Origin: Micromonospora sp. WMMA1363
GTDB lineage: Bacteria > Actinomycetota > Actinomycetes > Mycobacteriales > Micromonosporaceae
Length of the DNA stretch: 64,000 nucleotides
Assembly: GCF_030345795.1 (NCBI RefSeq)
Contig: NZ_JAUALB010000001.1
Coordinates: 5,634,001-5,698,000 of the forward strand
Direction: 5' to 3'
Shown: positions 43,364-64,000 of the stretch, in pieces
How the letters are laid out: the number at the start of each line of letters is the position of its first letter
Numbering within the stretch: position 1 is the first letter of the stretch
Made by a program: the position numbers and the translations under genes
The notes under the pieces: model-generated
What the model saw: only the letters and a program-made list of their open reading frames with translations
Databases searched by the model: none
What the model was told of the DNA's origin: nothing

Positions 43364-44723
43364 GTTAACGGCTGATCTTGGTTGTTGAGGTGGTCAGTTG
43401 TTGGCCGGGGTGAGCCGGCCTTCGAAGGCGATCTGGAAGGCGTTCAGTGGTGCTTTCCAGCGCATGGTCCAGCGTCGGCGGCCGGCTCCGGTCGGGTCGA
43501 GGCTCATCAAGGCCATGTAGACGCACTTGAGTGCGGCCTGCTCGTTCGGGAAGTGGCCACGAGCTCGCACGGCCCTGCGGATACGGGCGTTGACGGACTC
43601 GATCGCGTTCGTGGAGCAGATGACCTTGCGGATCTCCACGTCGAAGGCGAGGAACGGCACGAACTCCGCCCACGCGTTCTCCCACAGCTTCACGATCGCC
43701 GGATACTTACGGCCCCACGCCTCGGCGAACTCGAGGAACCGCTCGGTGGCGGCGTCCTCGGTCGCCGCGGTGTAGACCGGCCGCAGCGCTTTGGCGATCT
43801 TGTCCCAGTCCTGCCGGGCGGCGTAGCGGAACGAGTTGCGCAGCAGGTGCACCACACACGTCTGCACGATCGTGCGCGGCCACACCGTCTCCACCGTCTC
43901 CGGCAGTCCCTTGAGCCCGTCACAGACCAGCATCAGCACGTCGGCCACGCCGCGGTTCTTCAACTCGGTGAGCACGTGCAGCCAGTACTTGGCGCCCTCG
44001 CCGCCGTCACCGGCCCAGATACCGAGGATGTCGCGGTGGCCGTCGACGGTGACCGCCATCGCGAGGTAGATCGGCCGGTTCGCGACCTGACCGTCCCTGA
44101 TCTTGACGTTGATGGCGTCGATGAACACGACCGGGTAGACCCGGTCCAGGGGCCGGTTCTGCCACTCGGCCATGCCGTCCATGACCTTGTCGGTGATCGT
44201 GGAGATGGTCTGCTTCGACACCTCAGCGCCGTAGACCTCAGCCAGGTGCGCGGCGATCTCGCCGTGGGTCAGGCCCTTGGCCGACAGCGACAGGACCATG
44301 TCGTCGACGCCGGTCAGACGCCGCTGCCGCTTACGCACGATCTGCGGCTCGAACGTCCCGGCGGCGTCGCGTGGGACCCGCACCTCGACCGGCCCGACGT
44401 CGGTGAGCACCGTCTTGGTCCGGCTGCCGTTACGGGTGTTCCCGCTACCCCGACCCGCCGGGTCGTGCTTGTCGTAGCCGACGTGGTCGGTGATCTCCCC
44501 ATCCAACGCCGACTCGAGGACCCGCTTCGTCAGCTGCTGCAGCAGCCCACCCTCGCCGGTCAGCTTCAACCCGTCACCACGAGCCCGATCGACCAGCATC
44601 GCGATCAACTGCTCATCCGTGACCGCACCCACCGGCTCCACGGCCGGCTGTCCCACGGTGGTCTCGGTCGTCATCTGGCGTCTCTCCCTTGATCGGTCGA
44701 TCAGCCGTTATTTGTACAGTCCC
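43353..44723. mobile_element. IS256-family insertion sequence
   Basis: About 1.37 kb. Inverted ends are GGGAGTGTCAAGTTAACGGC at 43353 and, on the other strand, GGGACTGTACAAATAACGGC from 44723, with a perfectly shared TAACGGCTGATC core. The outside 8 bases (TGATGCCG and TTGACCCG) do not match, so there is no target duplication. Two unrelated truncated genes abut the two ends, which fits a deletion or recombination between two copies. Confidence 0.85.
43394..44674 (-). CDS. IS256-family mutator-type transposase
   Basis: 426-residue transposase with the DDE residues in VVFIDAINVKIRDG, VLMLVCDGLKGLPE and AIESVNARIRRAVRARGHFP, plus the Cys-x2-His motif region VQTCVVHLLRNS typical of the family. 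Full length and apparently intact. ATG 44674. Confidence 0.94.
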   Translation of the reverse strand: MTTETTVGQPAVEPVGAVTDEQLIAMLVDRARGDGLKLTGEGGLLQQLTKRVLESALDGEITDHVGYDKHDPAGRGSGNTRNGSRTKTVLTDVGPVEVRVPRDAAGTFEPQIVRKRQRRLTGVDDMVLSLSAKGLTHGEIAAHLAEVYGAEVSKQTISTITDKVMDGMAEWQNRPLDRVYPVVFIDAINVKIRDGQVANRPIYLAMAVTVDGHRDILGIWAGDGGEGAKYWLHVLTELKNRGVADVLMLVCDGLKGLPETVETVWPRTIVQTCVVHLLRNSFRYAARQDWDKIAKALRPVYTAATEDAATERFLEFAEAWGRKYPAIVKLWENAWAEFVPFLAFDVEIRKVICSTNAIESVNARIRRAVRARGHFPNEQAALKCVYMALMSLDPTGAGRRRWTMRWKAPLNAFQIAFEGRLTPANN

Positions 44724-45939: not shown

Positions 45940-47892
45940 ATGGATGACGTCGTCGACCGTCGCACCTTCCTCGCCTCCGCGGTGCTGGGTTCCGCGGGCG
46001 TCGTGGCGGGTGTGAACGTGCTCCCTCCGAGTGCCCCGAGGGCGGCAGCCTCGGCGGTGACCGGCAGCGGGCAACCGATACAGTCCGCGCCGCCGAACTT
46101 CGGTCTCACCAAGTTCCTCGACCCGTTGCGGATTCCGCCGACGATCCGGTCATATTCGCGGCGGAACCGGGACGAGCTGACGATCACGATGACGAACGCG
46201 CGGACCCGGCTGCACTCCCAGCTGCCCGAGACGGTGTTGTGGACCTACGAGGGTCGGTTCCCCGGCCCGACCATCGAGGTGCGCAGCGGCAGGCGACTGC
46301 GGGTGGCGTGGACCAACGAGCTCCGGGGCACGGTACCGCTCGTGGCGGTGCGGGTGCCGTTCGCGAAGCCGACCCCGGCGAACCTGCCCGGCTACCGCAA
46401 CCCGGACGGCAGCCTGCCCGCCGGGGTGGAGCTGATCGACGGTGTCGCCGACCTGCCGCCGTGGACCGTCGTGCACCTGCACGGCGCGCTGGCGAACGGC
46501 GGCAGCGACGGCTGGGCGCACAACGGCATATCGCCGGGGTACGCGCAGCTCACCGAGTACCCGAATCGCCAGCCAGCCACCGCCCTCTGGTACCACGACC
46601 ACGCGATGGCCGTGACGCGCTTCAACGTCCACGCCGGACTGGTCGGCATGTACCTGGTCCGCGACAGGGAAGAGGGCCGCCTGCGACTGCCAGCCGGCGA
46701 CCACGAAATCCCACTGATCCTCACCGACCGCAACCTCGACACCGACCCGGCGACCGGCGCGCTCACCGGCCAGCTGCTGTTCAAGTTCCAGTATCTGCCC
46801 GCGACCGGCACGTCGGCTCCCGTCACCGGCCCGTTCACCCTCGTCAACGGCGTCATCTGGCCGCACCTCGACGTCGAGGCGCGCTGGTACCGCTTTCGGG
46901 TGCTCAACGCGGCGAACGGTCGGTTCTTCCGCCTCGACCTGGTCGACGAGGCGGGCATCGTGCACAACGACGCGGTCCGGATCGTCGGCACGGACGCCGG
47001 CCTGCTGCCCGCCCCGGCGGCGGTGCCGGCGGGCGGGCTGACCATCACCCCGGCCGAGCGCGTCGACCTACTGATCGACTTCGGTCGGTTCACGGGGCAG
47101 CGCCTGCGCCTGGTCAACACCGGTGCCTCGATCGAGCCGGACATCATGGAGCTCCGCGTCGAGAGTCGCGGCCGCAACGACGCGTTCACGCCGCCGGCTC
47201 GCCTGTCCCCATCGTACGTTCGGCTCGAAAACGGGGTGACCGTGCCGGAGGACCACGACGAGGTGTTCGTGGCGACGACCGTGCCCGGTGCGGCCGGCCG
47301 ACCGCACCCGGAGATGTGGGAGCTGAAGGAGATCACCGATCCCGCCGAGCTTCCGACGCACTTCCCGGAGGAGGGGGTCATCCAGCTCACCGACCCGGTC
47401 ACCGGGCAGGTGCGAACGTTCCGGAAGGTCGCGCGCCTGTTCGACGACACGACGACGATCTTCATCGACCGGGGTCGGTGGGCGGTGTGGAACCTGATCC
47501 AGCTCGGCGGGCCCCCGCACCCGATGCACATCCACATGGCACGGTTCCAGCTGCTGACCCGGTGGCGGTTCAGCGACCTGACGGCTTTCGACATCGCGGT
47601 CGGCGGCACCACCAGACCGCTGCCCGCACCGGGCGATGGCCCGCCGATCGAGAAACACGAGGAGGGCTGGAAGGAGACCTTCCAGCTGTGGTCGGGTGAG
47701 TGGATCAGGGTTGCCGGTCAGTTCGAGGGTGCTACCGGCCAGTTCATGTACCACTGCCACATCCTTGACCACGAGGACGAGGGCATGATGCGACCCTTCG
47801 TCGTGCACCCGCCCGAGGTCGCCCGGTTCCACATGCACTCGGGTAGCTCGGGTCACCACTCGGGGGGCTCGGGCCACAACGGGCACTCGTAG
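45940..47892 (+). CDS. Tat-exported multicopper oxidase (phenoxazinone synthase/CotA-like)
   Basis: 650-residue multicopper oxidase. A twin-arginine signal (DRRTFLASAVLGSAGVVAG) indicates export in folded form. Copper ligands are in VVHLHGALA, ALWYHDHAMAV, GPPHPMHIHMARF and QFMYHCHILDHEDEGMM, so all T1, T2 and T3 sites are present. Length and order fit the three-domain CotA/phenoxazinone synthase branch, which oxidises aminophenols and hydroquinones. The tail is rich in His, Gly and Ser (HHSGGSGHNGHS). GGAGAAAG lies six bases before ATG 45940. Next to an ansamycin-like PKS it could oxidise a hydroquinone product or simply handle copper. Confidence 0.9.
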   Translation: MDDVVDRRTFLASAVLGSAGVVAGVNVLPPSAPRAAASAVTGSGQPIQSAPPNFGLTKFLDPLRIPPTIRSYSRRNRDELTITMTNARTRLHSQLPETVLWTYEGRFPGPTIEVRSGRRLRVAWTNELRGTVPLVAVRVPFAKPTPANLPGYRNPDGSLPAGVELIDGVADLPPWTVVHLHGALANGGSDGWAHNGISPGYAQLTEYPNRQPATALWYHDHAMAVTRFNVHAGLVGMYLVRDREEGRLRLPAGDHEIPLILTDRNLDTDPATGALTGQLLFKFQYLPATGTSAPVTGPFTLVNGVIWPHLDVEARWYRFRVLNAANGRFFRLDLVDEAGIVHNDAVRIVGTDAGLLPAPAAVPAGGLTITPAERVDLLIDFGRFTGQRLRLVNTGASIEPDIMELRVESRGRNDAFTPPARLSPSYVRLENGVTVPEDHDEVFVATTVPGAAGRPHPEMWELKEITDPAELPTHFPEEGVIQLTDPVTGQVRTFRKVARLFDDTTTIFIDRGRWAVWNLIQLGGPPHPMHIHMARFQLLTRWRFSDLTAFDIAVGGTTRPLPAPGDGPPIEKHEEGWKETFQLWSGEWIRVAGQFEGATGQFMYHCHILDHEDEGMMRPFVVHPPEVARFHMHSGSSGHHSGGSGHNGHS

Positions 47893-48461
47893 CCAACCGA
47901 CGGCGGACCGGCCCCGCCTCGGCGATCGACCCGCGGCACCCGGGCGGGGTCGACCCCGCCCGCCTCGAGCGCGGCGGATGCCCGATCAAGGCGGGAAACG
48001 GGTTCGGTCAGCGTGAGCACCACGACGCGTCGTCCTCACGCTGGTCGGACACCCGGGCCTGCCGGCCACCGACCGGCAGGCCCGCGACAGGGTTGTGGTC
48101 CGCTGGTTCCACCATCGGGGCGTCCAGCCCCAGTCCGCCCCGTCGATGATCATGCTGGTGGCTCTTCTCCGGTGACCATCAGAACTCGACACCGAGCTGG
48201 TCATCGACGAGTCGCGGGCCCCTCGCGTTCGGGCCGACTCCCGCCCCGAACCCTCGCTCAGCTGCGCAGAGTCAGGGGCGTCCCGGTCGCGGCGAATCTT
48301 GTCGCCCGCACGATTACCACAGCTCAGTGGACTCGTCGCCGGTGAACTACCCACGTTGGTTATGGCCCCTGGCAAGCGGGGTGGGCGAGTCTGATCAGGC
48401 ACAGAACATCCGCACCCGTGAGTTCCGTGGGCCCGGATGTGGAAGAAGGGCTGGAAAAGCC
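47893..48461. other. Intergenic region with 22-bp palindrome after the oxidase
   Basis: 569 bp with no supported gene. CGGGCGGGGTCGACCCCGCC and the following CG form a perfect 22-bp palindrome at 47941-47962, a likely terminator stem for the oxidase gene. A short open patch around 48027-48180 (VVLTLVGHPGLPATDRQARD) may be a decayed gene end. The promoter of the dehydrogenase-P450-PKS unit should lie in the last 150 bp. Confidence 0.55.
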
Positions 48462-49448
48462 ATGCGACAGCTTGAGGTAGCGCTGATCGGCGCGGGATTG
48501 ATTGCACGCTTCCACCTACAGGGATGGATCGACGCCGGAGCCGCCGTCCGGATTCATTCCGACGACGGCCGGGCCGCCGAGTTGGCACACGAGTTCGGTG
48601 CCCGGGCCGCCGGCTCCCTCGCCGAGGCGCTGGATGGTGTGGATGCCGTGGACATCTGCACCCCGACCGGCACCCACCGTGAGATCGCCCTGGCCGCCAT
48701 CGGCAAGGGCGTGGATGTGGTGTGCGAGAAGCCCCTGGCGGCCACCGTCGCGGAGGCCGAGGAGATCGTCGAAGCGTCGGAGCGGGCCGGTGTGCGGCTC
48801 TACCCGGCCCACGACGTGCGGTTCGCACCGGCATTCGCTCGGCTCCACGATCTGGTGGCGTCCGGCCGCGTGGGCGAGGGCGCGGTCGCTCGGTTCTGTT
48901 TCTCCGCCTACCACCCGCGACCCTGGACCGGGCACGCGTCCGCGCAGTCCGGCGGGATCCTGACCGACCAGATGCTGCACGGTGTCGATCTCGCGTACTG
49001 GATCTTCGGGGAGGTCGTTCGGGTGTACGCCTGCTACCAGGGTGAGATCGCCACACCGGCGCCGGCGGGGGCCGTGGCGACCGGCACCGCCGTGCTCACC
49101 CACACCAACGGTGCGATCAGTCAGGTCGTGAGCCGGTGGACGGCCACGCCGCAACCGCCCGTCCGGGTGGCCTTCCACGTCTCGGGTACCGGCGGGACGG
49201 TGAGCCACGACTCGCGGTGGCCCCAGCAGGTGCGGGTCGCCGACGGTGCGGCCGGCGACGTCGGCTACGGCGGGACGTCGGTGTTCGCCACCGAGATGCG
49301 CGAGTTCGCCGATGCCTTCGCGGGAGGGCCCGAGCCGCGCCTGGGGGCCCGCGACGCACTGGCCGCGGTCCGCCTCACGCAGGCCGCCGCGGAGTCCGCG
49401 TGGACGGGCCGTGCCGTGGAACTGCCGGTGAAGGGAGCCGCCGCATGA
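48462..49448 (+). CDS. Gfo/Idh/MocA-family dehydrogenase, first of pair
   Basis: 328-residue NAD(P)-dependent oxidoreductase. The Rossmann motif VALIGAGLIARFH is at the N-terminus, the conserved CEKPLAATVAEAEE motif near residue 90, and the C-terminal alpha/beta domain has the catalytic-type histidine region GGILTDQMLHGVDLAYW. ATG 48462 is used because the upstream extension is not conserved. Its stop overlaps the next start (ATGA). In the rifamycin cluster two such genes (rifS, rifT) lie just upstream of rifA with a P450 gene, as I recall, so a tailoring oxidation of the polyketide is the best guess. Confidence 0.88.
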   Translation: MRQLEVALIGAGLIARFHLQGWIDAGAAVRIHSDDGRAAELAHEFGARAAGSLAEALDGVDAVDICTPTGTHREIALAAIGKGVDVVCEKPLAATVAEAEEIVEASERAGVRLYPAHDVRFAPAFARLHDLVASGRVGEGAVARFCFSAYHPRPWTGHASAQSGGILTDQMLHGVDLAYWIFGEVVRVYACYQGEIATPAPAGAVATGTAVLTHTNGAISQVVSRWTATPQPPVRVAFHVSGTGGTVSHDSRWPQQVRVADGAAGDVGYGGTSVFATEMREFADAFAGGPEPRLGARDALAAVRLTQAAAESAWTGRAVELPVKGAAA

Positions 49449-50401
49449 GAGTCGCCGTCCTGTCCCTGGCGCACGAACACGCCAGCACCTACGCCCGGGT
49501 GTTGCACGAGATGCCCGACGTCGAGCTGCTCATCGCCGACCCCGACGGTTCGCCGGACGGCCACGCTCTCGGCCAACGCGTCGCCGGGCAACTCGGTGTT
49601 TCCTATGCGAACGACTGGGACGAGGTGTTCGAGTGGCTACCCAACGCCGTGGTGATCACCAGTGAGGTCGGCCGGCACCGGGAGCTGGTCGAGCGGATGG
49701 CCGAGGCGGAGACGTTCGTGCTCTGTGCCCAACCGTTGGCACCCACCGAACTCGACGTCAAGGCCATGGTGGACGCCTGCGACATGGCGGGGGTCCGGCT
49801 CACGGTCGCGTCCCCGGCCTGCCACAGCGAGGCGTTCGCCGCGGTGCGCCGAGGGATCGCCGACGGCGTCGTCGGCACGCTGACCACCATCCACGGCTCC
49901 TACCACACCCCCCCGGTCGGCGGGGACGGCGGAGTGCTCGCCGTCAACGCCGCGTACCTGCTCGACCTGGTGGACATGGTGCTCGACGGGGACCCGGCGA
50001 CCCGGGTGTACGCCCAGACGAACACCGTGCTCAGCGGACGGACAGGTGCCGAGAGCGCGGCCGTGCTCACCGTCTCGTACCGCGGTGGCATCGTCGCCTC
50101 GTTCGACTGCGGCTGGAGCCGGTCGGCGGGTGGACCAGCCCTGACCTTCGTCGGCGACCGGGCGAGCGTGGAGTACGACGCCGCGCCGCGGCTCCTCGGC
50201 GGATTCGACGCCGCCGCCGGCGGTGAGCGGTGGGAACCGGGCGGCGAGGACCTGTACCCGCTGATGCTCAGAGATTTCCTCGGCACGATCGAGACCGGTA
50301 CGGGAGTCGGCCCGGACGGCCAGGCCGGGCTGCGCACGCAGCGGATCATCGAGGCCGCCCACACGTCTTTGCGGACCGGCCAGCCGGTCGACATCGGATG
50401 A
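49445..50401 (+). CDS. Gfo/Idh/MocA-family oxidoreductase, second of pair
   Basis: 318 residues with the family fold, but the N-terminal dinucleotide motif is divergent: VAVLSLAHEHASTYARVL replaces the GxGxxG pattern, and LCAQPLAPTELDVKAMVD replaces the C-E-K-P motif (Glu-Lys changed to Ala-Gln). The catalytic lysine is thus absent, so this may be a non-catalytic or altered partner of the first protein, possibly as a heterodimer. ATG 49445 overlaps the preceding stop. Context as for its partner. Confidence 0.8.
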   Translation: MRVAVLSLAHEHASTYARVLHEMPDVELLIADPDGSPDGHALGQRVAGQLGVSYANDWDEVFEWLPNAVVITSEVGRHRELVERMAEAETFVLCAQPLAPTELDVKAMVDACDMAGVRLTVASPACHSEAFAAVRRGIADGVVGTLTTIHGSYHTPPVGGDGGVLAVNAAYLLDLVDMVLDGDPATRVYAQTNTVLSGRTGAESAAVLTVSYRGGIVASFDCGWSRSAGGPALTFVGDRASVEYDAAPRLLGGFDAAAGGERWEPGGEDLYPLMLRDFLGTIETGTGVGPDGQAGLRTQRIIEAAHTSLRTGQPVDIG

Positions 50402-50794: not shown

Positions 50795-51988
50795 ATGACC
50801 GACGCCATTTCCTTCGAGGTGCCGTGGGCGCGAACCGACAAGTTCGATCCGCCCGCGGTATTCGACACGTTGCGCGAACAGCGCCCGCTCGCGCGGATGC
50901 GCTACCCGGACGGGCATGTCGGCTGGATCGTCTCCAGCTACGAGCTGGTGCGTGAGGTGCTCAGCGACCCGCGGTTCAGCCACAGCTGCGCGGTCGGTCA
51001 CTTCCCGGTGACGCACCAGGGACAGGTGATCCCGACCCACCCCCAGATCCCCGGGATGTTCATCCACATGGACCCGCCCGAGCACACCCGTTACCGCCGC
51101 CTGCTGACCGGTGAGTTCACCGTCCGCCGCACAAGCCGGTTGACGGGGCACGCCGAGGCCGTGGCCGCCGAGCAGATCGAGGTCATGCGTGCGCACGGGG
51201 CTCCGGCTGATCTGGTCGCAACCTTCGCCCAGCCGCTCGTCCTGAGGGTGTTGTCCGGGCTGGTCGGCCTGCCGTACGACGAGCGTGACCGCTACCTGCA
51301 CGCGGTGACCCTCCTACACGACGCGGAGGCGGACCCGGCGGAGGCCGCCGCCGCCTACGAGAAGGCGGGGGCGTTCTTCGACGAGGTCATCGAGAGGCGC
51401 CGCGGGCAGCCCGCCGACGACCTCATCAGCACCCTGGTCGGCAACGGCGAGCTGACCGGCGAAGAGCTGCGCAACATCGTCACACTGCTGCTGTTCGCGG
51501 GCTACGAAACCACGGAGAGCGCGCTGGCCGTCGGCATGTTCGCGCTGCTGCACCACGCGGACCAACTGGCGAGGCTCCGCGCGGACCCGGCGAAACTCGA
51601 CGCCGCGATCGAGGAACTCCTGCGCTACCTGACGGTCAACCAGTACCACACGTACCGCACCGCCTCGGAAGACGTCGAGCTGCACGGCGAGGTGGTCAAG
51701 AAGGGGGACAGCGTCACGGTGTCGTTGCCGGCGGCGAACCGCGACCCGGTCAGGTTCGAGTGCCCCGCGACGTTGGACATCGATCGCGAGACCTCGGGGC
51801 ACGTGGCGTTCGGCTTCGGCATCCACCAGTGCCTCGGCCAGAACCTGGCGCGCGTCGAGCTGCGTGCCGGCCTGTCGGCACTCCTGCGGGCGTTCCCCGA
51901 CCTGCGGCTGGCCGTCCCGGCCGACGAGGTGCCGCTGCGTCTGCAGGGATCCGTCTTCGCGGTGGAGAAGCTGCCCGTCTGTTGGTGA
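50795..51988 (+). CDS. Cytochrome P450
   Basis: 397-residue bacterial class I P450. The I-helix is LLLFAGYETTESALAVG (the usual acid-threonine pair appears as E-T-T), the ExxR pair is in AIEELLRYL with the later arginine, and the haem-binding loop is FGFGIHQCLGQNLARVELR with the cysteine ligand. It needs a ferredoxin partner, not seen here. Placed directly before the PKS gene (39 bp gap), it is probably cotranscribed and hydroxylates or oxidises the polyketide. This position matches rif orf0 from memory. Confidence 0.93.
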   Translation: MTDAISFEVPWARTDKFDPPAVFDTLREQRPLARMRYPDGHVGWIVSSYELVREVLSDPRFSHSCAVGHFPVTHQGQVIPTHPQIPGMFIHMDPPEHTRYRRLLTGEFTVRRTSRLTGHAEAVAAEQIEVMRAHGAPADLVATFAQPLVLRVLSGLVGLPYDERDRYLHAVTLLHDAEADPAEAAAAYEKAGAFFDEVIERRRGQPADDLISTLVGNGELTGEELRNIVTLLLFAGYETTESALAVGMFALLHHADQLARLRADPAKLDAAIEELLRYLTVNQYHTYRTASEDVELHGEVVKKGDSVTVSLPAANRDPVRFECPATLDIDRETSGHVAFGFGIHQCLGQNLARVELRAGLSALLRAFPDLRLAVPADEVPLRLQGSVFAVEKLPVCW

Positions 51989-52027
51989 GCGTTCTTTCCC
52001 CGAGTGCTCGAAAGGATCTACCACGCC

Positions 52028-55000
52028 GTGCGAACCGACCTCATCAAGCCGCTGCCCGTCGCACTTCAGGAGAACGCGGCCCGCTTTCCCGGCAAGGTGG
52101 CTTTCGAGGACGACCGCAGAGCGGTGACGTACACCGACCTCGAGGCGCGGACGCGTCGGCTCGCCGGGCACCTGACGGGCCTCGGCGTCCGGCGCGGCGA
52201 CCGGGTGGCCATCTGGCTGCGCCAGTCGGTGTCGACCGTGGAGAGTTACCTGGCGGTCGTGCGCGCGGGCGCCGTCGGGGTGCCGCTCAACCCCGCCGCC
52301 GCGCAGGCGGAGCTGGAGTACCTGCTGGCCGACAGCGGCGCCACGGTGGTCATCACCGATGCCGTCCAGGCGCAGCGGCTCCGGCCGATGCCGCACCTCA
52401 CGCTGGTGGTGGCGGGTGACGTCCCGGCGGGAGCGCTGTCGTACGACGAGCTCGCCGTCAGCGAACCGGACCAGCCAGCCGGGGACGACCTCGGCCTCGA
52501 CGACGTGGCCTGGATGTTCTACACGTCGGGGACGACCGGCAAGCCCAAGGGTGTCCTCTCGACGCAGCGCAACTGCCTCTGGTCCGTCGCCTCGTGCTAC
52601 GTGCCGATTCCCGGGCTGACGGACCAGGACCGGGTGCTCTGGCCGCTCCCGCTGTTCCACAGCCTCTCGCACATCGCCTGCGTTCTGTCCGTCACCGTGG
52701 TCGGCGCGACCGCCCGGATCATGGACGGCAGTTCCGCGCAGGACGTGATGCGGGCGCTACACCAGGAACAGTCGACGTTCCTGGCCGGTGTGCCCACGAC
52801 GTACCAGCAGCTGGTGGCTGCCGCCAGGCGGCACGGGTTCACCGCACCGAGCCTGCGGATCGGCCTGGCCGGAGGAGCGGTCCTCGGGGCCGGGCTGCGC
52901 CGGGAGTTCGAAGAGACCTTCGGGGTGCCGTTGGTCGACGCCTACGGCAGCACCGAGACCTGCGGAGCGATCACCATCAACCCGCCGGACGGCCCGCGGG
53001 TCGCCGGGTCCTGCGGATTGCCGGTGCCGGGTGTCGGGGTCCGCATCGTCGACCCGACCACCGGGCGAGACCTTCCCACCGGCGCGGAGGGAGAGGTGTG
53101 GGTCAGGGGGCCGGGTGTCATGGTCGGCTACCACAACAGCCCGGAGGCGACCGCCGAAGCGATGCGCGACGGCTGGTTCCGCACGGGCGACCTGGCCCGC
53201 CGCGACGACGCGGGCTACGTCACCGTCTGCGGCCGGATCAAGGAGCTGGTGATCCGCGGCGGGGAGAACATCCACCCCACCGAGGTGGAAGCGGTGCTGC
53301 GGACCGTCCCGGGTGTCGCCGACGTCGCGGTGGCCGGCGTGCCGCACGACACTCTCGGCGAGGTGCCGGTCGCGTACGTGATCCCCGGCCCGGACGGGTT
53401 CGACGTCGAGTCGCTGTTGACCCGCTGCCGCGAGCGGCTTTCCGCCTACAAGGTGCCGCATCAGGTCCATGAGGTCACGAGTATCCCCCGGACCGCGTCG
53501 GGAAAGGTCCAGCGGCGGCTCCTGGCGGAACAGACCGGTCGGTTGGTGTACGTGGCAGTGGATCACCACGACGCGCAGCTGAGCGTGGACGAGCCCGACG
53601 CCGCCATCGCGGCGGCCCTGCGCAATCGGCTGTCCGGGCTGGACGAACGGGCGCAGCTGGCGCTGCTGGAGGACCTGGTCCGAACGCAGACCGCGTCGGT
53701 GCTGCGCCAGCCGGGGCCCGACGCGGTTCCGGCCGACCGGGCGTTTCGTGACCAGGGCCTCACCTCCGCGGCCATCGTCGACCTGCGCAACCGGCTGACG
53801 GCGAGTACCGGACTGCGGCTGCCGACCAGCGTCGTCTTCGACCATCCCACCCCGATGGCGCTGGCGTCCTGCCTGCGGGCCGAGGTTCTCGGAATCACCC
53901 GGCTGGTCGCCGAGCCGGTCCTGGTGGCCGACCCCGCGGAGCCGATCGCCATCGTGGGGATGGCCTGCCGGCTCCCCGGCGGCGTGACGGGTCCGGAGGA
54001 CCTGTGGAACCTGGTGGCCGCCGGAGTCGACGCCGTCGCCGAGTTTCCCGGCGACCGGGGCTGGGACCTTGACCGTCTGTTCGATCCCGACCCAGACCGC
54101 GCAGGCACCTCGTACGCGAGTCAGGGTGGCTTCCTGCCCGAGGCGGGGCTGTTCGACGCGGGATTCTTCGGGATCTCGCCGCGCGAGGCGCTGGCGATGG
54201 ATCCGCAACAGCGACTGTTGCTGGAGACCTCGTGGGAGGCGTTGGAGCGGGCGGGCATCGACGCTCTGTCGCTGAAGGGCGCCGACGTCGGCGTGTTCGC
54301 CGGCGTCTTCGGTCACGGCTACGGAGTCGGCACCGACGCTCCGGAACTGGAAGGATTCGTGACCACGGGGTCGGCCGCCAGCGTGGCATCGGGCCGGATC
54401 TCCTACGTGTTCGGCTTCGAGGGGCCGGCGGTCACCGTGGACACGGCCTGTTCGTCGTCACTGGTGGCGATGCACCTCGCCGCGCAGGCGTTGCGGCAGG
54501 GCGAGTGCTCCGTCGCGCTGGCCGGCGGTGCGACGGTGATGGCCACGCCCGGCACCTTCGTGGAGTTCTCCCGCCAGCGGGCGCTCGCACCCGACGGACG
54601 GTGCAAGGCGTTCGCCGCCGCCGCCGACGGCACCGGCTGGGCCGAGGGCGCGGGTGTGGTCGTCCTGGAGCGGCTGTCGGCGGCCCGCGAGCGCGGGCAT
54701 CGGATTCTGGCCGTGCTGCGGGGCAGCGCGGTGAACCAGGACGGCGCGTCGAACGGCCTGACGGCGCCGAACGGTCTGGCGCAGCAGCGGGTCATCCGCC
54801 GGGCTCTCGCCGCCGCCGGGCTCTCCCCGTCCGAGGTGGACGCCGTCGAGGGGCACGGCACCGGGACCACCCTGGGTGATCCGATCGAGGCGCAGGCGTT
54901 GCTGGCGACCTACGGTCAGGACCGTGCCCCGGGGCGTCCGCTGTGGTTGGGCTCGCTGAAGTCGAACGTCGGGCATGCGCAGGCGGCCGCGGGTGTCGCC

Positions 55001-58000
55001 GGCGTGATCAAGATGGTGCAGGCGTTGCGGCACGGGATCCTGCCGGCGACGCTGCACGTCGACGCGCCCACTCCCGGAGTGGACTGGTCCGCGGGTGCCG
55101 TGCGGCTGTTGACGGAGGCGCGTGACTGGTCGCGCGACGGTCGTCCGCGCCGGGTCGGGGTGTCGTCGTTCGGGGTCAGCGGGACGAACGCCCACGTGAT
55201 CCTGGAGGAGGCGCCCGAGGAACCGGCAGCCGACGAGGCGCCCCGGGTGGGCGTGGTGCCGCTGGTCGTGTCGGCGCGGAGCACGGCGTCGCTGCTCGGT
55301 CAGGCGGGTCGGCTGGCCGCGTTCGTGGCGGAGGCCGGGCCGCCGATGGCGGACCTGGCCGGTGCGTTGACGTCGAACCGGGCGGTGTTGGGCGAGCGAG
55401 CCGTCGTGCTGGCCGGCTCCGCCGGTGAGGCGGTGACCGGCCTGGGTGCCCTGGCGCGCGGTGAACCCGCGGTCGGCGTGGTGACCGGCCGCGCCGACGT
55501 CGAGGGCAAGGTGGTGTGGGTGTTCCCGGGGCAGGGGACACAGTGGGCCGGGATGGGCCGGGAACTGCTCGAGTCGTCCCCGGTGTTCGCCGAGCGGGTG
55601 GCCGAGTGCGCCGCCGCGCTGGAGCCGTGGATCGACTGGCCCCTGCTGGAGGTGTTGCGTGGTGACGCCGAGCCGGGGTTGATGGACCGGGTCGACGTGC
55701 TGCAGCCGGCGACGTTCGCGGTCATGGTGGGACTCGCTGCGGTGTGGTCGTCGGTGGGCGTGCGGCCGGACGCGGTCGTGGGCCACTCGCAGGGTGAGAT
55801 CGCGGCCGCCTGCGTGGCGGGGGCGCTGTCCCTCGCGGACGCGGCTCGGGTGGTGGCGTTGCGTAGTCAGGCCATCGCCTCGGTGTTGTCGGGCCGTGGT
55901 GGCATGGCTTCCGTCGCGTTGAGCGAGGAAGACGTGGCGGCGCGGCTGGCGCCGTGGACGGACCGGCTGGAGGTCGCCGCGGTCAACGGGCCCTCGTCGG
56001 TGGTGATCGCCGGTGACGCCCCGGCGTTGGACGAGGCGCTCGAGTCGCTGGCGGACGGGGCTGTCCGAGTGCGGCGGGTGGCGGTGGACTACGCCTCGCA
56101 CACCCGGCACGTCGAGGACATTCGGGACGCGCTGGCCGAGTCGCTGGCCGGCGTCGACGCGCAGGCGCCGGCCGTTCCCTTCTTCTCCTGTGCGACCGGC
56201 GAGTGGATCCGCGACGCCGGGGTGGTCGACGGCGGTTACTGGTACCGGAACCTGCGCAACCAGGTGCGGTTCGGACCGGCCGTCACCCACCTGATCGGCC
56301 AGCGGTACGGCGTCTTCCTCGAGATCAGCGCGCATCCGGTGCTGGTCCAGCCGATCAGCGAGATCGGGCCCGACACCGATGTCGTGGTGACGGGGACGCT
56401 GCGGCGCGACGACGGCGGCCCGCGGCGGCTGCTGACGTCGATGGCCGAGCTGTTCGTCCGCGGCGTGGCCGTCGACTGGTCCGGGATGCTCCCGCCCAGG
56501 TCCGGTTGGGTGGACCTGCCGACCTACGCCTTCGACCACCGGCACTACTGGCTACCGCCGGCGGAATCGGCGACCGACGCGACGTCGCTGGGGCAGGTGG
56601 CGACTGATCACCCGTTGTTGGGTGCGGTCGTCGGCTCGCCGCGGTCGGCCGGATTCGCGGCCACCTCGAGATGGTCGGTGCGGTCGCACCCCTGGCTCGC
56701 CGACCACCTCGTGGCGGACGCCGTCCTGGTGCCGAACGCGGCCCTCGTGGAGGTTGCCATCCGGCTCGGCGACCTGGCCGCCACCCCCGTCGTCGACGAA
56801 CTGACCGTCGACGTTCCCGTGGTGCTGCCGGCACGGGGCGGCCGCGACGTCCAGGCCATCGTGGGTGAGCCCGACGAGACGCGGCGACGGCCCGTGGAGA
56901 TCTTCTCCCGGGCCGCGGAAACCGCCCTGGACGCGGCGTGGACGCGCCACGCGCACGGCACACTGGCCCCCGCCGCATCCCCGTCGACCCGCCCGGAGCC
57001 CGGGGCCGCCATCGAGATCGGCCTGGACGGCGCAGCGCTTCGGGACGCCGACCGGTACGGGATGCACCCCGCCCTGCTGGACGCGGCCGCCCGCACCGTC
57101 ATCCCGGACGGCACGTTGCCGTCCCGGTGGACCGGGGTGACCCTGCTGGCCTCCGGCGCCGCCGCACTACGGGTGCGGCCGGGGCCGACATCGCAGCGGG
57201 GGACCGGTCTGACGTTGACCGACGCCACGGGGCAACCCGTCATGACCGTCGACGCGGTTCTCGGCACGCCCGCCTCCCCCGATCAGGCGGGGATCTCCGG
57301 TGGGCTGCCACCCGACGCCCTGTTCCGCGTCGAGTGGACCGAGCTGCCGCTGCCGGTCGTGGACCGCGCCGTCGCCGTCACGCCCGTCGCGACCGGCGAG
57401 GACGTGGCCGCCGCGGCCACGGTGGCCCCGGACGTCCTGCAGTACGAAGCCGTCACCGCAGACCCCCGCGCGTCGGCCGGCGCAGCCCTGGAGGTGCTCC
57501 AGGCATGGCTCGCGGAACCAGCCCTGGCGGACACCCGGCTGGCCGTCGTCACCGGGGACTGCGCCGAACTCGGCGCAGCGGCGGTGTGGGGGTTGGTGCG
57601 CTCGGCGCAGTCGGAGCACCCGGGCCGGATCGTGTTGGCCGACCTCGATACGGCGTCCCGGTCCGTGCTGCCCGCGCTGCTGCGCAGCGGCGAGCCGCAG
57701 CTGAGGGTGCGCGACGGCGTCGCGGAGGTGCCACGCCTGGCCCGCGTCTCGCCCGACGCGCCGGAGGAGCGACGTCCGCTCGACCCCGACGGCACCGTGC
57801 TGATCACCGGTGGAACGGGAACACTCGGCGCCACGACGGCACGGCATCTGGTCACCGCACACGGCGTCCGGCACCTGGTCCTGGTCAGCCGGCGCGGCTG
57901 TGCCCCGGAGCTGCAGGCCGAGTTGACCGCGCTGGGGGCGTCCGTCACCGTGGCCGCCTGCGACGCCGCGGACCGGGCCCAGCTCGAGGCCGTGCTGGCT

Positions 58001-61000
58001 GCCGTTGCGGCCGAGCATCCGCTCACCGCCGTGGTGCACACGGCCGGTGTCCTCGACGACGGGGTGCTCACCGAGCTGACCCCGGAACGCGTCGACACCG
58101 TGCTGCGGCCGAAGCTGGATGCGGCACTGCATCTGCACGAGCTCACCCGGGACCTGGACCTCGCCGCGTTCGTGCTGTTCTCCTCCGCGGCCGGTGTGCT
58201 GGGCAACCCCGGGCAGGCGAACTACGCGGCGGCCAACGCGTGCCTGGACGCGATCGCGCGTCACCGTCACCGCCTCGGCCTTCCCGCGGTGTCCCTCGCC
58301 TGGGGCTACTGGACGCCGGTCAGCACCATGACCGAGCACCTGGGGGCCGCGGACCTGGGCCGCAACAGGCGCACGGGTATGAGCGGCCTCTCCGCCGCCG
58401 AGGGAATGGCGATCCTGGACGCCACCCTCGGCGCCGCCGACACGTTGGTCGCGGCGAAGCTGGACGTGCCCGCCCTGCGCAGGGCAGCGGCGGGTGGTGA
58501 TCCGATACCGCCGTTGCTGCGTGGTCTGGCGCCGCCGCCACGGCCGACGGCCGGGGTCACGGCCGGCCCCGCGTCGCTCGCCCAGCGCCTCGCCAATCTC
58601 ACCCAGCCCGAGGCCACCGAGGTGGTGCTCGACCTGGTGCGCGGGTACGCCGCCGAGGTGCTCGGGCACGCAGACGCCGACGCGATCCACCCCGGCCGGG
58701 CCTTCAAGGACGCCGGTTTCGACTCGCTGACGGCGGTGGAACTGCGAAACCGGTTGGCCGTCGCGACCGGGCTCACCCTGTCCCCGGCGCTGGTCTTCGA
58801 CTACCCGAAACCCGCGGCGCTCGCCGAGCACCTACACGCCAGGCTGCTCGGTGGGGCATCCCGCCGCCAGGACGAATCCGGTGTCCCCGCCGCGACGACC
58901 GACGAACCCATCGCGATCGTCGCGATGGCCTGCCGCTTCCCGGCGGGTGTGCACGGTCCGGAGGACCTGTGGCGGGTGGTGGTCGACGGGGTCGACGCGG
59001 TCACCGAGTTCCCCCGGGACCGCGGTTGGGACACCGAGGGGCTCTACCACGAAGACCCCGACCACCCGGGCACAACGTACGTGCGTCACGGCGCCTTCCT
59101 CGACGACGCCGCCGGGTTCGACGCGGCCTTCTTCGGCATCTCGCCGAAGGAGGCGTTGGCGATGGATCCGCAGCAGCGGCTGTTGCTGGAGACCTCGTGG
59201 GAGGTGTTCGAACGGGCCGCGATCGACCCGACCACGCTGGCCGGGCAGGACGTCGGCGTCTTCGTCGGCGTCAACAGCCACGACTACAGCATGCGGACGC
59301 ACCAGGCGTCCGACCTCGAGGGTTTCCGGCTCACCGGAAGTTCGGGCAGCGTCGTCTCCGGTCGCGTCGCCTACCACTTCGGTCTTGAGGGCCCCGCCAT
59401 CACGGTCGACACCGCCTGCTCGTCCTCACTGGTGGCGCTGCACATGGCGAGCCAGGCGCTGCACCGCGGCGAGTGCAGCATGGCGTTGGCCGGTGGCGTC
59501 ATGGTGATGGGCACCCTCGAGACCTTCGTGGAGTTCTCCCGGCAGGGCGGCCTGGCGCCCGACGGCCGGTGCAAGGCGTTCGCGGACGGAGCGGACGGCA
59601 CCGGCTGGTCCGAGGGCGTGGGACTGCTGCTGGTGGAACGGCTGTCCGAGGCCCGCCGCCGGGGCCACCAGGTGTTGGCGGTGGTGCGCGGATCAGCGGT
59701 GAACCAGGACGGCGCGTCGAACGGCCTCACCGCCCCGAACGGGCCGTCGCAGCAGCGGGTGATCCGTAGGGCGCTGGCCGACGCCGGCCTGAGCACCTCG
59801 GACGTGGACGCCGTCGAGGCACACGGTACGGGGACCACACTCGGCGACCCGATCGAGGCGCAGGCGCTTCTCGCGACCTACGGCCAGGACCGACCCGCCG
59901 GCCGACCGCTGTGGCTCGGATCGGTCAAGTCGAACATCGGGCACACCCAGGCAGCGGCGGGTGTCGCGGGCGTCACCAAGATGGTGATGGCCATCCGGCA
60001 CGGCGTCCTTCCGCGGACCCTGCACGTGGATCGCCCGTCCACCAACGTGGACTGGTCGTCGGGCGGGGTCCAGCTGCTGACCGAGGCACGCGACTGGCCG
60101 GAGACCGGCCGGCCCCGCCGGGCCGCGGTGTCGTCCTTCGGCATCGGCGGCACCAACGCGCACGTCATCATCGAGGCAGCCCCCGACCAGCCGGTGACCC
60201 CCACCCCGGAGCCGGACCCGGAGCCCGACGGCCTCCCGACCCCGATCCCGCTGTCGGCGCGGACGGCCGCCGGGCTGCGTGGCCAGGCGGGTCGGCTCGC
60301 CCGGTTCCTCGGCGACCGGCCCACCGTGCGCCTCGCCGACGCCGCCTACGCCCTCGCCACCACCCGCGCCCAACTCGAGCACCGCGCCGTCGTGCTCGCC
60401 GCCGACCGGCGGCAGGCCGAGGTCGATCTCAGCGCCATGGAGCGCGGCGGGACCGGTCCCACGGTCGTGTCCGGCGCCCCGGTCACCGGCAAGCTGGCCA
60501 TCCTCTTCACCGGTCAGGGCAGTCAGTGGCCGGGCATGGGACGCGAACTCGCCGAGACGTTCCCGGTCTTCCGCACCGCGTTCGCCGCCGCCTGCACCGC
60601 CGTCGAACAGCACCTGGAACCGGTGCGTCCACTGCGCGACGTGGTGTTCGCGGGGGACGGTGAACTGCTCGACCAGACCATGTACACGCAGGCTGCCCTC
60701 TTCGCCCTGGAGACCGCGCTGTTCCGGCTCGTCGAGTCATGGGGGGTGCGACCCGACCTCCTCGCCGGCCACTCGATCGGGGAGATAACCGCCGCTCACG
60801 TCGCCGGGGTGTTGGACCTGACGGAGGCGGCCAAGCTGGTCGCCACGCGCGGCCGGCTGATGCAGGAACTGCCCGCCGGCGGCGCGATGGTCGCCGTCCA
60901 GGCGACCGAGGCCGACGTCGCGCCCCTGCTCGCCCGAGCCGACGGCGTGGTCTGCGTCGCGGCGGTGAACGGCCCCGACTCGGTGGTGCTCTCGGGCGAC

Positions 61001-64000
61001 GAGAACGCGGTGCTCGCCCTGGCGGGTGAGCTGGCCGGTCGTGGCCATCGGACGCGTCGACTGCCGGTCAGTCACGCCTTCCACTCGCCGCTGATGGCAC
61101 CCATGCTCGACGAGTTCCGGGCCGTCGTGGCGGACCTGTCGTTCCGGCCGAGTGCCCTTCCCGTCGTCTCCACGCTCACCGGCGTCCTCGCCCGGGAGGG
61201 GCAGTTCGGTACCGCGGACTACTGGGTCGACCAGGCACGCAACACGGTCCGGTTCAGCGACGCGGTCACCGCGCTGGGTGAGCACGGCGCGACGACCTTC
61301 CTGGAACTGGGCCCGGGTGGATCCCTCGCCGCGATGGTGCTCAGCACGCTCGGCGCGCCGGAACAGGCCTGCGTCGCCGCCCTGCGCAAGGACGGCGCGG
61401 AGGCCAGTGACCTCGTGGCCGCGGTCGCGGGGCTGCACGTGCGTGGGGTGGCCGTCGACTGGGCGGGGCTGCTCGGCCGGCGGTCCGGCGGGGCGGGGAC
61501 CGACCTGCCCACCTATGCGTTCCAGCACCAGCGGTACTGGGCCGAGACCGACGACACCACGACGGGCGGCGCGGAGACGCTCGGTGCCACCGACGCCCGG
61601 CACCCGCTACTCGGCACCGTGATCGAGGTACCGGACACCGGTGGCCTCGTGCTGACCGGCCGCCTGTCGCCGCGCAGCCCCGGCCTTCTTCCCGGCAGCG
61701 CCACCCGGGTGCCGGCAGCCGTGCTCCTCGAGCTGCTGGTCAAGGCGGGGAGCGAGGTCGGATGTGGCAGCCTCGACCAGATCGTCGTCGAGGCGCCGCT
61801 CGAGGTGTCGGAGCACGGAGGCACCCAGGTGCGGGTGACCGTGGACGCTCCCGGCCTGGACGGACGCCGGGGCGTCGCCGTCCACGGCAGGCTCGACGGT
61901 GGGCGGCGCGGGCCGTGGACCCGCCACGCGCGCGCTGTACTGCTCCCCGGCCTGCCGCAGCCGAGCTTCGACCTGCGGGACCCGCCGGGGCGCGAGATCA
62001 CCCTGCCGGACGAGCTGACCGACCAGGCCGCCACGTTCGCCCTCCACCCGCTGCTCCTCGACGCCGCGCTGCGCGTCCTGGCCGGAGACGATCACCGGGA
62101 TGTGTCCGCCTGCGCCAGCATGACGGTGTACGCGCAGGGGGCCGTCGCCCTGCGCCTGCGGACGACGCCGACCCGGGACGGCCGGCACCTGCTGGAGTTG
62201 GCGGACACCGCGGGGGAACCCGTCGCCGCCGTCGGCCCGCTGACCCTCGACGCCAGCACCGCCGACCGGGTGGAGCCCGACGCCGCGCCGCTGCCGGTGC
62301 CGCTCACCCGCCGGGTGGTGGCGCGGGGCGAGGCGGCGGGCGAGGCGATCCTGGACCGGCTGGCGGGACTGGCCGGGGCCGAGCAGCTTCGGGTCGTGAC
62401 GGCTCTGGTCAAGGAGAGCATCGCGGCCGTCCTCGGTCACCGCGAGTCGGAAGCGTTCGCCGAGGGGCAGGCCTTCAAGGACCTCGGATTCGATTCACTG
62501 AGCGCGGTCAGACTGCGGAACCGGCTGCGGGACTTCACCGGCGTGAGCCTGCCCAGCACGTTGGTCTTCGATCACCCGACACCCGCCATCCTCGCCGCCC
62601 ACCTGCGGGACGAACTGCTCGGCGAGCGCCGGGAGCTACCCGCTCCGACGGCCCGGGCCACGCACTCTGACGAACCTGTCGCGATCGTCGCGATGAGCAC
62701 CCGGCTGCCTGGCGGCGTCGACACTCCCGAGGACCTGTGGCACCTGGTGCTGGAGCGGCGGGACGCGGTCGCTGGTTTCCCGGTCGACCGGGGCTGGGAC
62801 CTCGACGGGCTGTACGACCCTGACCCCGCCAACCCGGGCACGAGCTACACCCGCCTGGGCGGGTTCTTGTACGACGCCGCACAGTTTGACGGCACGCTGT
62901 TCGGGATCTCGCCGCGCGAGGCACTGGCGATGGACCCACAGCAGCGGTTGCTGCTGGAGACGTCCTGGGAGGCGCTGGAGCGGGCGGGCATCGACCCGCT
63001 GTCGCTCAAGGGCAGCGACGTCGGCGTCTTCACCGGCATCGTCCACCACGACTACGTGAGCCGGTTGCACCGGGTGCCCGACGACGTCCAGGGCTATCTC
63101 ATGACCGGCGCCGCCTCCAGCGTGGCGTCGGGTCGCGTGTCCTACGTGTTCGGCTTCGAGGGCCCGGCGGTGACCCTGGACACGGCGTGCTCGTCCTCGC
63201 TGGTGGCGATGCACCTCGCCGCGCAGGCGTTGCGGCAGGGCGAGTGTTCGATGGCGCTGGCGGGTGGCGCGACCGTGATGGCCAGCCCGGACGCGTTCCT
63301 GGAGTTCTCCCGGCAGCGGGGCCTGTCCGCCGACGGACGCTGTAAGGCCTACGCGGACGGCGCGGACGGTACGGGATGGGCCGAGGGGATCGGTGTCGTG
63401 CTGATGGAGCGGTTGTCCGTGGCACGGGAGCGCGGGCACCCGGTCCTGGCCGTGCTGCGGGGCAGTGCGGTGAACCAGGACGGAGCGTCGAACGGTCTGA
63501 CGGCGCCGAACGGTCCGGCGCAGCAGCGGGTGATCCGCAGCGCGCTGGCGAGTGCCGGCCTGGCACCGGCCGACGTGGACGTCGTGGAGGGGCACGGGAC
63601 CGGGACGGCTCTGGGCGACCCGATCGAGGCGCAGGCCCTGCTGGCCACGTACGGGCAGGGTCGGGATGCCGGGCATCCGCTGTGGTTGGGGTCGTTGAAG
63701 TCGAACATCGGGCACACCCAGGCCGCCGCGGGAGTGGCCGGTGTGATCAAGATGGTGCAGGCGTTGCGACACGAGGTGTTGCCGGCGACGCTGCACGTGG
63801 AGACGCCCACCACCGAGGTCGACTGGTCGGCCGGGGCGGTCCGGGTGCTGACCGAGCCGCGCGACTGGCCACGCGGCGACCGCACCCGCCGGGCCGCCGT
63901 ATCCTCCTTCGGCGCGAGCGGGACGAACGCGCACGTGATCATCGAGGAAGCGCCCGACGAGCGGGCCGAGCCCGCCACGGCGGAGGGCCCCGCGGCCGGT
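52028..64000 (+). CDS. Modular type I polyketide synthase with CoA-ligase loading module (RifA-like), 3' end outside window
   Basis: Open for 3,991 codons to the window end. GTG 52028 has AAAGGA 11 bases upstream. Loading: CoA-ligase-like domain (1-500, [11 protein letters not shown] at 165-175, Lys493) and ACP1 (Ser580 in GLTS). Module 1: KS (Cys808), AT (Ser1254, YASH 1355-1358, methylmalonyl type), DH (His1560 and Asp1685 present, but the HxxxGxxxxP glycine is Asp1564), KR (TGGTGTLG 1927-1934, LDD 2009-2011, Ser2053, Tyr2066; B-type), ACP2 (Ser2233). Module 2: KS (Cys2464), AT (Ser2916, HAFH 3016-3019, malonyl type), DH remnant without the first His motif, no KR, ACP3 (Ser3490). Module 3 opens with KS (Cys3721). 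This fits AHBA-primed naphthalenic ansamycin synthases by domain order; the starter is inferred. Confidence 0.93.

Follow-up and report, generated by a model that had tools for sequence, protein, structure and literature searches.

Does the large polyketide synthase (PKS) gene that runs off the right edge of a 64,000-nucleotide stretch of Micromonospora sp. WMMA1363 begin a rifamycin cluster, and, if so, how are its starter unit and the tolerance of its host provided for? The stretch (hereafter the window, C1:5634001-5698000) comes from a 6.48-Mb genome in 20 contigs. A reading of its letters without database searches (the sequence-only reading) had proposed the start of a rifamycin-type, AHBA-primed naphthalenic ansamycin synthase beside the core chromosome, with the AHBA genes and the rest of the synthase outside the window. 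This proposal was borne out, and refined from a naphthalenic type to a whole rifamycin-type cluster with ten modules and a methylmalonyl-type AT10: the window very probably covers the left end of a cluster that is complete, looks intact and spans about 83-89 kb, in a genome assigned to Micromonospora (GTDB).

Materials and methods

C1:5680001-5806000 was fetched to extend the sequence rightward, over the next 108 kb past the window end, and coordinates above 64000 continue the window numbering to the right. Genes were called with a script using GC by codon position, and a phmmer search, queried with domains from the window protein, located the PKS domains. In WMMA1363, word patterns did not catch parts of KS4, KS8 and AT6; AT6 was later read as YGSH. 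Genes were named by similarity to rif genes and from tables in the accessible parts of PMC4551226 and PMC8788734.

Eight other rif regions were compared (G006, G044, G065, G068, G086, G140, Amycolatopsis rifamycinica DSM 46095 and A. vancoresmycina); the G006 contig stops inside the PKS (7 KS seen), and the PKS of G044 was fetched only to the loading locus. G044 is M. halophytica and G068 M. okii (TP-A0468), and A. rifamycinica DSM 46095 makes rifamycin; G086 is presumably M. rifamycinica, and G006, at a guess, Salinispora arenicola. Module motifs were compared between WMMA1363 and the complete regions of G065, G086, G140, M. okii, A. rifamycinica and A. vancoresmycina, as well as the incomplete one of G006. 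Comparison of the J-DoxX-N-I block excluded rows for the first 370 bases of the stretch used (the end of the transketolase gene) and one 264-base G006 row outside the block.

rpoB was fetched from 26 genomes, 24 of the 160 in the genus (7 rif holders and 17 non-holders) and two Amycolatopsis. The non-holders were picked from hit lists, not at random, and four of them have the second AHBA family described below. G004 was dropped from repeat tests, since it has two full-length alaS copies and the divergent one had been taken; gyrA was left out as a species marker because of split genes and a paralog.

Results

The first synthase gene and its left flank

The frame at 52004-64000 is uninterrupted over 3999 codons and leaves the window; the full protein has 5146 residues (Table 1). 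For its start codon, 52028 is one possibility, but there is no stop from 52004 onward, and alignment to A. rifamycinica sets in at residue 3 of this longer frame. In the window part of RifA, Pfam recognised an AMP-binding domain, three carrier stretches, three KS, two AT, one KR and two dehydratase-like stretches. A loading CoA-ligase with its ACP, a methylmalonyl module 1 in which only the KR works, and a malonyl module 2 without ketoreduction had been described from the letters alone, and all three descriptions held: Pfam and the domain search found the AMP-binding domain and a carrier, the motifs of modules 1 and 2 agree (Table 1), and no module 2 KR was found in the domain search of RifA.

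Three Rfam matches to the ASpks antisense RNA exceed the gathering score, at window 54887-54961, 59855-59929 and 63626-63700, antisense to the equivalent stretch of the three KS domains. In our reading they reflect conservation of the KS coding sequence and do not mark RNA genes.

Directly upstream of rifA, the two Gfo/Idh/MocA genes and the P450 of the earlier description were confirmed by Pfam, NCBIfam and their coordinates; the P450 matches NCBIfam P450 models, all below their cut-offs. The RifS-like gene probably starts at about 48.46 kb, judging from the 327 aa given for cxmS. The order rifS-rifT-orf0 upstream of rifA, named in the sequence-only reading and present in WMMA1363, appears in the accessible part of PMC4551226, and in that of PMC8788734 with orf35 between rifT and orf0. 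Deletion of rifT gave 8-deoxy-rifamycins (PMC7563148, accessible part).

Further left, a multicopper oxidase gene probably belongs to the cluster. Homologs at 70-89% occur in five of the eight other rif regions (G006, G086, G140, M. okii and A. vancoresmycina), and none was found in the fetched rif regions of G065, G044 (part) and A. rifamycinica. At a guess, its product might oxidise rifamycin SV to S. The placement beside the core chromosome was borne out on the right side, where rpsB, tsf, pyrH (read from an amino-acid-kinase-family gene) and frr follow from 136.4 kb, rpsB lying 1.4 kb past rifJ; on the left are the multicopper oxidase gene, a Mutator-family transposase and a serine recombinase.

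Table 1. Features of the WMMA1363 cluster and its left flank, in window numbering.
Feature	Position	Strand	Evidence or remark
Serine recombinase	37636-39036		left of the transposase
Mutator-family transposase	43394-44674		left of the multicopper oxidase gene
Multicopper oxidase gene	45940-47892	+	PF07731/PF07732
RifS-like Gfo/Idh/MocA oxidoreductase	48327-49448 (open frame)	+	PF01408/PF22725 on 48639-49448; 72-90% to 7/7 rif regions
RifT-like Gfo/Idh/MocA dehydrogenase	49445-50401	+	PF22725/PF02894; 54-88% to 7/7 rif regions
Cytochrome P450, orf0-like	50795-51988	+	82-93% to 7/7 rif regions compared
rifA-like PKS gene	52004-67444 (in window to 64000)	+	loading module and modules 1-3; best stretches 72-90% to 7/7 rif regions compared
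Loading adenylation (CoA-ligase-like) domain	52064-53539	+	PF00501/PF13193; 73-89% to 20 named loci
Loading ACP	53660-53884	+	domain search
KS1	53939-55228	+	motif DTACSSS
AT1, methylmalonyl-type	55514-56473	+	YASH
DH1, probably dead	56600-57493	+	glycine of HxxxGxxxxP missing
KR1	57779-58333	+	catalytic Ser/Tyr/Asn and NADPH motif present
ACP1	58619-58843	+	domain search
KS2	58904-60196	+	domain search
AT2, malonyl-type	60497-61456	+	HAFH
Dehydratase remnant, module 2	61586-62434	+	HxxxGxxxxP pattern not found; match overlaps ACP2 start
ACP2	62390-62614	+	domain search
KS3	62672-63967	+	rest of module 3 past window: AT YASH, KR without its tyrosine
rifB	67478-83248		modules 4-6
rifC	83294-88729		module 7
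rifD	88766-94132		module 8
rifE	94185-104648		modules 9-10
rifF, amide synthase	104687-105439		directly after last PKS gene; sole PF00797 match in genome
rifG	105652-106695		Pfam agrees
rifH	106692-107957		Pfam agrees
rifK, AHBA synthase	108219-109340		best PDB match 1b9h, E 2e-224; 56 kb downstream of rifA start
rifL	109337-110410		Pfam agrees
rifM	110422-111120		Pfam agrees
RifI-like (Shikimate_dh_N), RifN-like (ROK), DoxX-like, RifJ-like (class II dehydroquinase)	131999-135027	-	Pfam

The cluster to the right of the window

The rightward sequence holds five PKS genes with ten extender modules, an amide synthase, an AHBA synthase, AHBA supply and tailoring genes, and then rpsB. The AHBA genes and the remainder of the synthase thus lie where they had been placed, and the two enzymes named beforehand as checks on the proposal, a RifF-like amide synthase and an AHBA synthase, are both present (Table 1). 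After rifM, Pfam recognised a Rieske protein, two P450s, a small ferredoxin, a PapA-like acyltransferase, an EryCIII-like glycosyltransferase, DegT and class III aminotransferases, a Gfo/Idh protein, an NDP-hexose 2,3-dehydratase, an FAD hydroxylase, a thioesterase, a LuxR regulator, a methyltransferase and two transketolase halves. Pfam supports two of the three P450s of the cluster. The tailoring genes are matched in most of the eight other rif regions, fewest in A. vancoresmycina.

No MFS exporter of the RifP type was found among 39 Pfam-scanned ORFs, which include non-cluster ORFs and part of those of the region. A rifamycin monooxygenase was set aside as the means of self-resistance in WMMA1363, where no match exceeds the NCBIfam cut-off of 800 and the best reaches 160 bits; such an enzyme exceeds the cut-off in two of eight genomes. 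At about 163.0-168.2 kb (C1:5797035-5802168), three identical 441-aa ORFs spaced 1904 bases apart look like intron-type reverse transcriptases.

Module plan and predicted product

The extender modules are split 3-3-1-1-2 over the five PKS genes, with ten KS in one array. The AT order is methylmalonyl (mm), malonyl (mal), mm, mm, mm, YGSH, mm, mm, mal, mm; the pattern mm, mal, mm x6, mal, mm is that of the rifamycin type. All ten modules agree with A. rifamycinica in their order and AT motif, with YGSH at AT6 in both; the same AT6 motif is found in six of seven other regions and is unreadable in G006. Six other complete regions share the plan, the exceptions being AT10 of M. okii and AT8 of A. 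vancoresmycina, where the motif pattern recognised nothing.

M. okii is alone in having HAFH at AT10; the motif reads YASH in WMMA1363, G065, G086, G140, G006, A. rifamycinica and A. vancoresmycina. Thus the malonyl-specific AT of module 10, a feature of chaxamycin and 16-demethylrifamycin clusters, was not found in WMMA1363. M. okii TP-A0468 is a 16-demethylrifamycin producer (PMC7283461, accessible part). Because AT10 of WMMA1363 is of the methylmalonyl type, unlike the malonyl AT10 of M. okii, a C16-methylated rifamycin is predicted, and the expected product would be SV/S-like with a C16 methyl.

Modules 2 and 3 are without a working KR, another rifamycin-type feature, and KR3 lacks its tyrosine in the three genomes compared (WMMA1363, G086 and A. 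rifamycinica), as is described for chaxamycin in PMC4551226. Modules 4-8 and 10 carry the first DH motif; in module 9 the pattern search gave no convincing one. Rifamycin retains hydroxyls at some positions whose modules carry a DH motif. A similar puzzle is described for chaxamycin modules 6 and 7 in the accessible part of PMC4551226. The module 2 DH stretch occurs in WMMA1363, G065, G086, G140 and G006, and was not detected in A. rifamycinica, A. vancoresmycina and M. okii. Modules 5 and 8 have two DH pieces in WMMA1363 and one in A. rifamycinica.

Loading domains and AHBA synthases in other genomes

Of the 77 loci that the loading domain finds in named genomes, 20, all actinobacterial, match it at 73-89% and the other 57 at no more than 38%. 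An AHBA synthase accompanies it in 19 of these 20 genomes (best match 76-89%), the exception being G164, Streptomyces sp. SID14478. The grouping of the loading domain, a further check proposed at the outset, therefore came out on the AHBA side: the loading module appears to be of the AHBA-type adenylation-ACP kind, and we infer that its adenylation domain takes AHBA. Within the genus, the loading domain is matched at E 1e-150 in 41 of 160 genomes (seven at 82-100%, the other 34 only at 52-68%), and the AHBA synthase at E 1e-100 in 32 of 160 (seven at 86-100%, the others at 70-76%). The genomes with the top matches are the same seven for both proteins.

In the loading-domain tree, WMMA1363 pairs with G006 (support 100) and is united with G006, G065, G086, G140 and M. 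halophytica (support 100). It does not join A. rifamycinica to the exclusion of Streptomyces types, and the deep AHBA-type nodes are weak, so that the call of a rifamycin family rests on the whole cluster and not on this tree. The cluster tree (loading domain and rifK) again pairs WMMA1363 with G006 (100) and adds G044 and G065 (91); the loading-domain protein tree joins WMMA1363, G006, G086 and G140 with a support of 49, in conflict with the cluster-tree placement. These supports are those of the unrooted trees.

A second AHBA-like loading domain (57%) is found in WMMA1363 at C1:1638055, in an A-ACP-KS-AT-ACP-reductase gene adjoining GMC oxidoreductase and aldehyde dehydrogenase genes. Given this gene layout and a single AHBA synthase match in the genome at E 1e-100, it was set aside as a rival starter. 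A second AHBA-primed PKS family occurs in G024 and other genomes of the genus, with a loading domain at about 59-68% and an AHBA synthase at 70-76%; its AT order in G024 is unlike rif.

A patchwork supply of AHBA

The AHBA genes rifGHKLM, rifJ and rifN are all present in the WMMA1363 cluster, J, N and I being of the other AHBA family and standing at the cluster end. This feature does not define the rif group strictly, since part of the AHBA set is missing from the rif regions of G044, G065 and M. okii. rifK-L-M of WMMA1363 shows 85-93% DNA identity over its whole length to seven of eight other rif regions, 83% over 1786 bases to A. vancoresmycina, and 72-73% to second-family clusters (5/5). 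The J-DoxX-N-I block, in turn, is 90-91% identical in DNA to the second-family clusters of G044 and G024, 80-81% to those of G065 and G140, and 74-76% to that of M. okii; it stands at 89-92% to the G006 block and at 67-77% to the scattered native genes of other rif regions. The block, which ends the rif cluster in WMMA1363 and G006, thus appears to have been captured from the second AHBA cluster family.

Native rifI lies between H and K in G044, G086, G140, A. rifamycinica and A. vancoresmycina, and was not found in the rif regions of WMMA1363, G006, G065 and M. okii. Native rifN follows M in G086, G140, A. rifamycinica and A. vancoresmycina, and was not found in those of WMMA1363, G006, G044, G065 and M. 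okii. The last three of these show neither rifJ nor rifN in their rif regions, cluster ends included, and their second AHBA clusters carry both (in M. okii, rifN is more distant, at 57%, and rifI has no match). G140 has native and second-family versions, and G086 has native rifI and rifN and no second AHBA synthase; a second AHBA synthase is likewise absent from WMMA1363 and G006, which have the block. Each of the seven holder genomes therefore has rifJ and rifN somewhere, and it is possible that the second AHBA cluster supplies them in trans in G044, G065 and M. okii.

RifN is a kanosamine kinase and RifJ an amino-DHQ dehydratase in AHBA synthesis (PMC8788734, accessible part). Since deletion of rifI raised AHBA (PMC4551226, accessible part), its loss alone need not matter. 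Because a block of the other AHBA family stands in for native rifI and rifN, the AHBA supply of WMMA1363 is a patchwork.

The RpoB residue and the inheritance of the cluster

The serine of the rifamycin site in RpoB is Asn (RRLNALG) in all nine rif holders, the seven of the genus and both Amycolatopsis, and Ser (RRLSALG) in all 17 genomes without a rif-type cluster. Over the 26 genomes, this residue splits rif-type from other AHBA clusters without exception. In WMMA1363, rpoB lies at C1:3264091 (site locus to 3264297), 2.42 Mb from rifA. The host is expected to tolerate its product through this Asn at the classical resistance serine.

Seven rpoB sites fully separate the seven holders from the 17 non-holders; two are synonymous, and one, column 2027, lies outside columns 1150-1900. 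Within these columns the holders form a clade (UFBoot 100), which is rejected by recA (AU p 0.0013) and by alaS and the rpoB 3' part (p <0.001) in 23 genomes. The rpoB 5' part (columns 0-900) does not reject holder monophyly (AU p 0.24, 24 genomes), and the 5' boundary of the segment is therefore vague. At the rpoB 3' end (last three windows), G006 is at 94.6-96.7% to its small-genome relative G022 and at 91.6-92.3% to the best holder; in the segment (windows 1200 to 1800) it is at 95.7-96.7% to WMMA1363 and at 89.7-91.7% to G022. G006 is closer to WMMA1363 in much of the 5' part too. The segment barely resolves the seven holders (supports 17-61 on three nodes).

For the seven holders, the cluster tree and the alaS+recA tree are equally likely on both data sets, which amounts to one topology, so that common inheritance with many losses is an equally good account. 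Simple transfer of cluster and rpoB among the holders was considered and set aside, these trees being in agreement. rpsB stands beside the cluster only in WMMA1363 and G006, on opposite sides, and is distant or on other contigs in the other five; the chromosomal place is therefore not conserved. In A. mediterranei, a resistant rpoB lies beside the rif cluster (accessible parts of PMC7283461, PMC4551226 and PMC6804068).

While retrieving markers, we observed that recA of G003, G065, G068 and G140 matches in two pieces within one long frame, probably because of an intein.

Discussion

From the gene content, AHBA would be made by RifG/H/K/L/M with the relocated RifJ and RifN, and the RifA loading domain would activate it and load its own ACP. 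Module 1 (methylmalonyl with ketoreduction) and module 2 (malonyl, the ketone left in place) would give aryl-CHOH-CH(CH3)-CO-CH2-CO, and module 3 (methylmalonyl, dead KR) would retain the third ketone, from which the naphthalene ring would close with the help of an orf19-like flavin hydroxylase. Modules 4-10 (RifB-E) would complete the chain, RifF would close the macrolactam, RifT would oxidise at C8, and P450s, an acyltransferase, a methyltransferase and transketolase-like proteins would tailor the product. This chemistry, like expression, product and resistance, is predicted from sequence.

The observed gene content, domain order, motifs and RpoB residue also bear on other readings. There is a slim chance that the cluster is decayed or silent and its product no longer made. 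Native rifI and rifN are indeed gone; however, each of the five PKS genes is a long open frame, the motifs of KS, AT and ACP could be recognised in almost every module, the steps missing with the native genes are covered by the captured block, and RpoB keeps the producer-type residue. A still slimmer chance attaches to a chaxamycin- or 16-demethylrifamycin-type cluster, of equal architecture with malonyl at module 10. The upstream order and the ten-module plan match chaxamycin in the accessible part of PMC4551226, as does the module 2 DH stretch of WMMA1363, G065, G086, G140 and G006, but the AT10 motif is YASH in WMMA1363, and M. okii alone has HAFH. Moreover, the same source gives the chaxamycin producer a sensitive-type RpoB, where WMMA1363 has Asn; as M. 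okii RpoB is also Asn, this counts against chaxamycin only. Hardly credible, finally, is another naphthalenic ansamycin (of the naphthomycin, streptovaricin or rubradirin type) sharing only the chain start. The window alone cannot discriminate, and Streptomyces loci with 76-81% loading identity may be such types, but, in a comparison made among rif regions, A. rifamycinica shares the ten-module AT pattern and most of the tailoring genes.

The rifamycin-type cluster of WMMA1363 can be set beside its known relatives. Amycolatopsis rif (A. rifamycinica DSM 46095 compared by sequence, A. mediterranei from the accessible parts of papers) has the same five PKS genes (L-1-2-3 / 4-5-6 / 7 / 8 / 9-10), AT pattern, dead KR3, RifF, AHBA genes, rifS-rifT-orf0 upstream, most tailoring genes and RpoB Asn. 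WMMA1363 differs from it in the foreign block next to rifJ that replaces rifI/rifN, in the extra module 2 DH remnant, and in Rieske, small ferredoxin, DoxX and multicopper oxidase genes with no match in A. rifamycinica; its rpoB is 2.4 Mb off, whereas that of A. rifamycinica is on the cluster's own contig (C38:115340). The genus rif clusters (G044, G068, G086, G065, G140 and G006) share the loading domain (82-92%), the AHBA synthase (86-94%), the module plan where complete, and most tailoring genes. They differ in chromosomal place, in the malonyl AT10 of M. okii, and in having native rifI/rifN (G086, G140) or native rifI (G044). The chaxamycin cluster (cxm) of Streptomyces leeuwenhoekii, as given in the accessible part of PMC4551226, has the rifS/rifT/orf0 order, ten modules, a dead KR3 and an orf19-like hydroxylase in common with WMMA1363, and differs by malonyl at module 10, an extra KR in the loading module and a sensitive-type RpoB.

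A more far-reaching reading, with a probability a little better than even, is that the rif cluster of this genus is a package of unlinked parts. An rpoB segment of about 750 bases would be exchanged or kept by homologous recombination as the cluster is present or lost, either through gain with the cluster or through reversion after its loss, and the cluster would rely on a second AHBA cluster for rifJ and rifN or, where that is missing (WMMA1363, G006), on the captured J-DoxX-N-I block. Open-licence titles and abstract beginnings showed no prior report of the rpoB segment or the rifI/rifN swap; the 2010 Salinispora arenicola cluster paper, outside that scope, may hold one.

The cluster adds a new member to a known type, one more rif-type locus in a clinically important family, with a C16-methylated rifamycin as its predicted product; the AHBA patchwork and the rpoB association may surprise specialists. 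Two questions become testable: what keeps a drug-making pathway in company with the tolerant form of an essential, unlinked target gene in different species, and in what way co-resident ansamycin clusters share or exchange their starter-unit genes.
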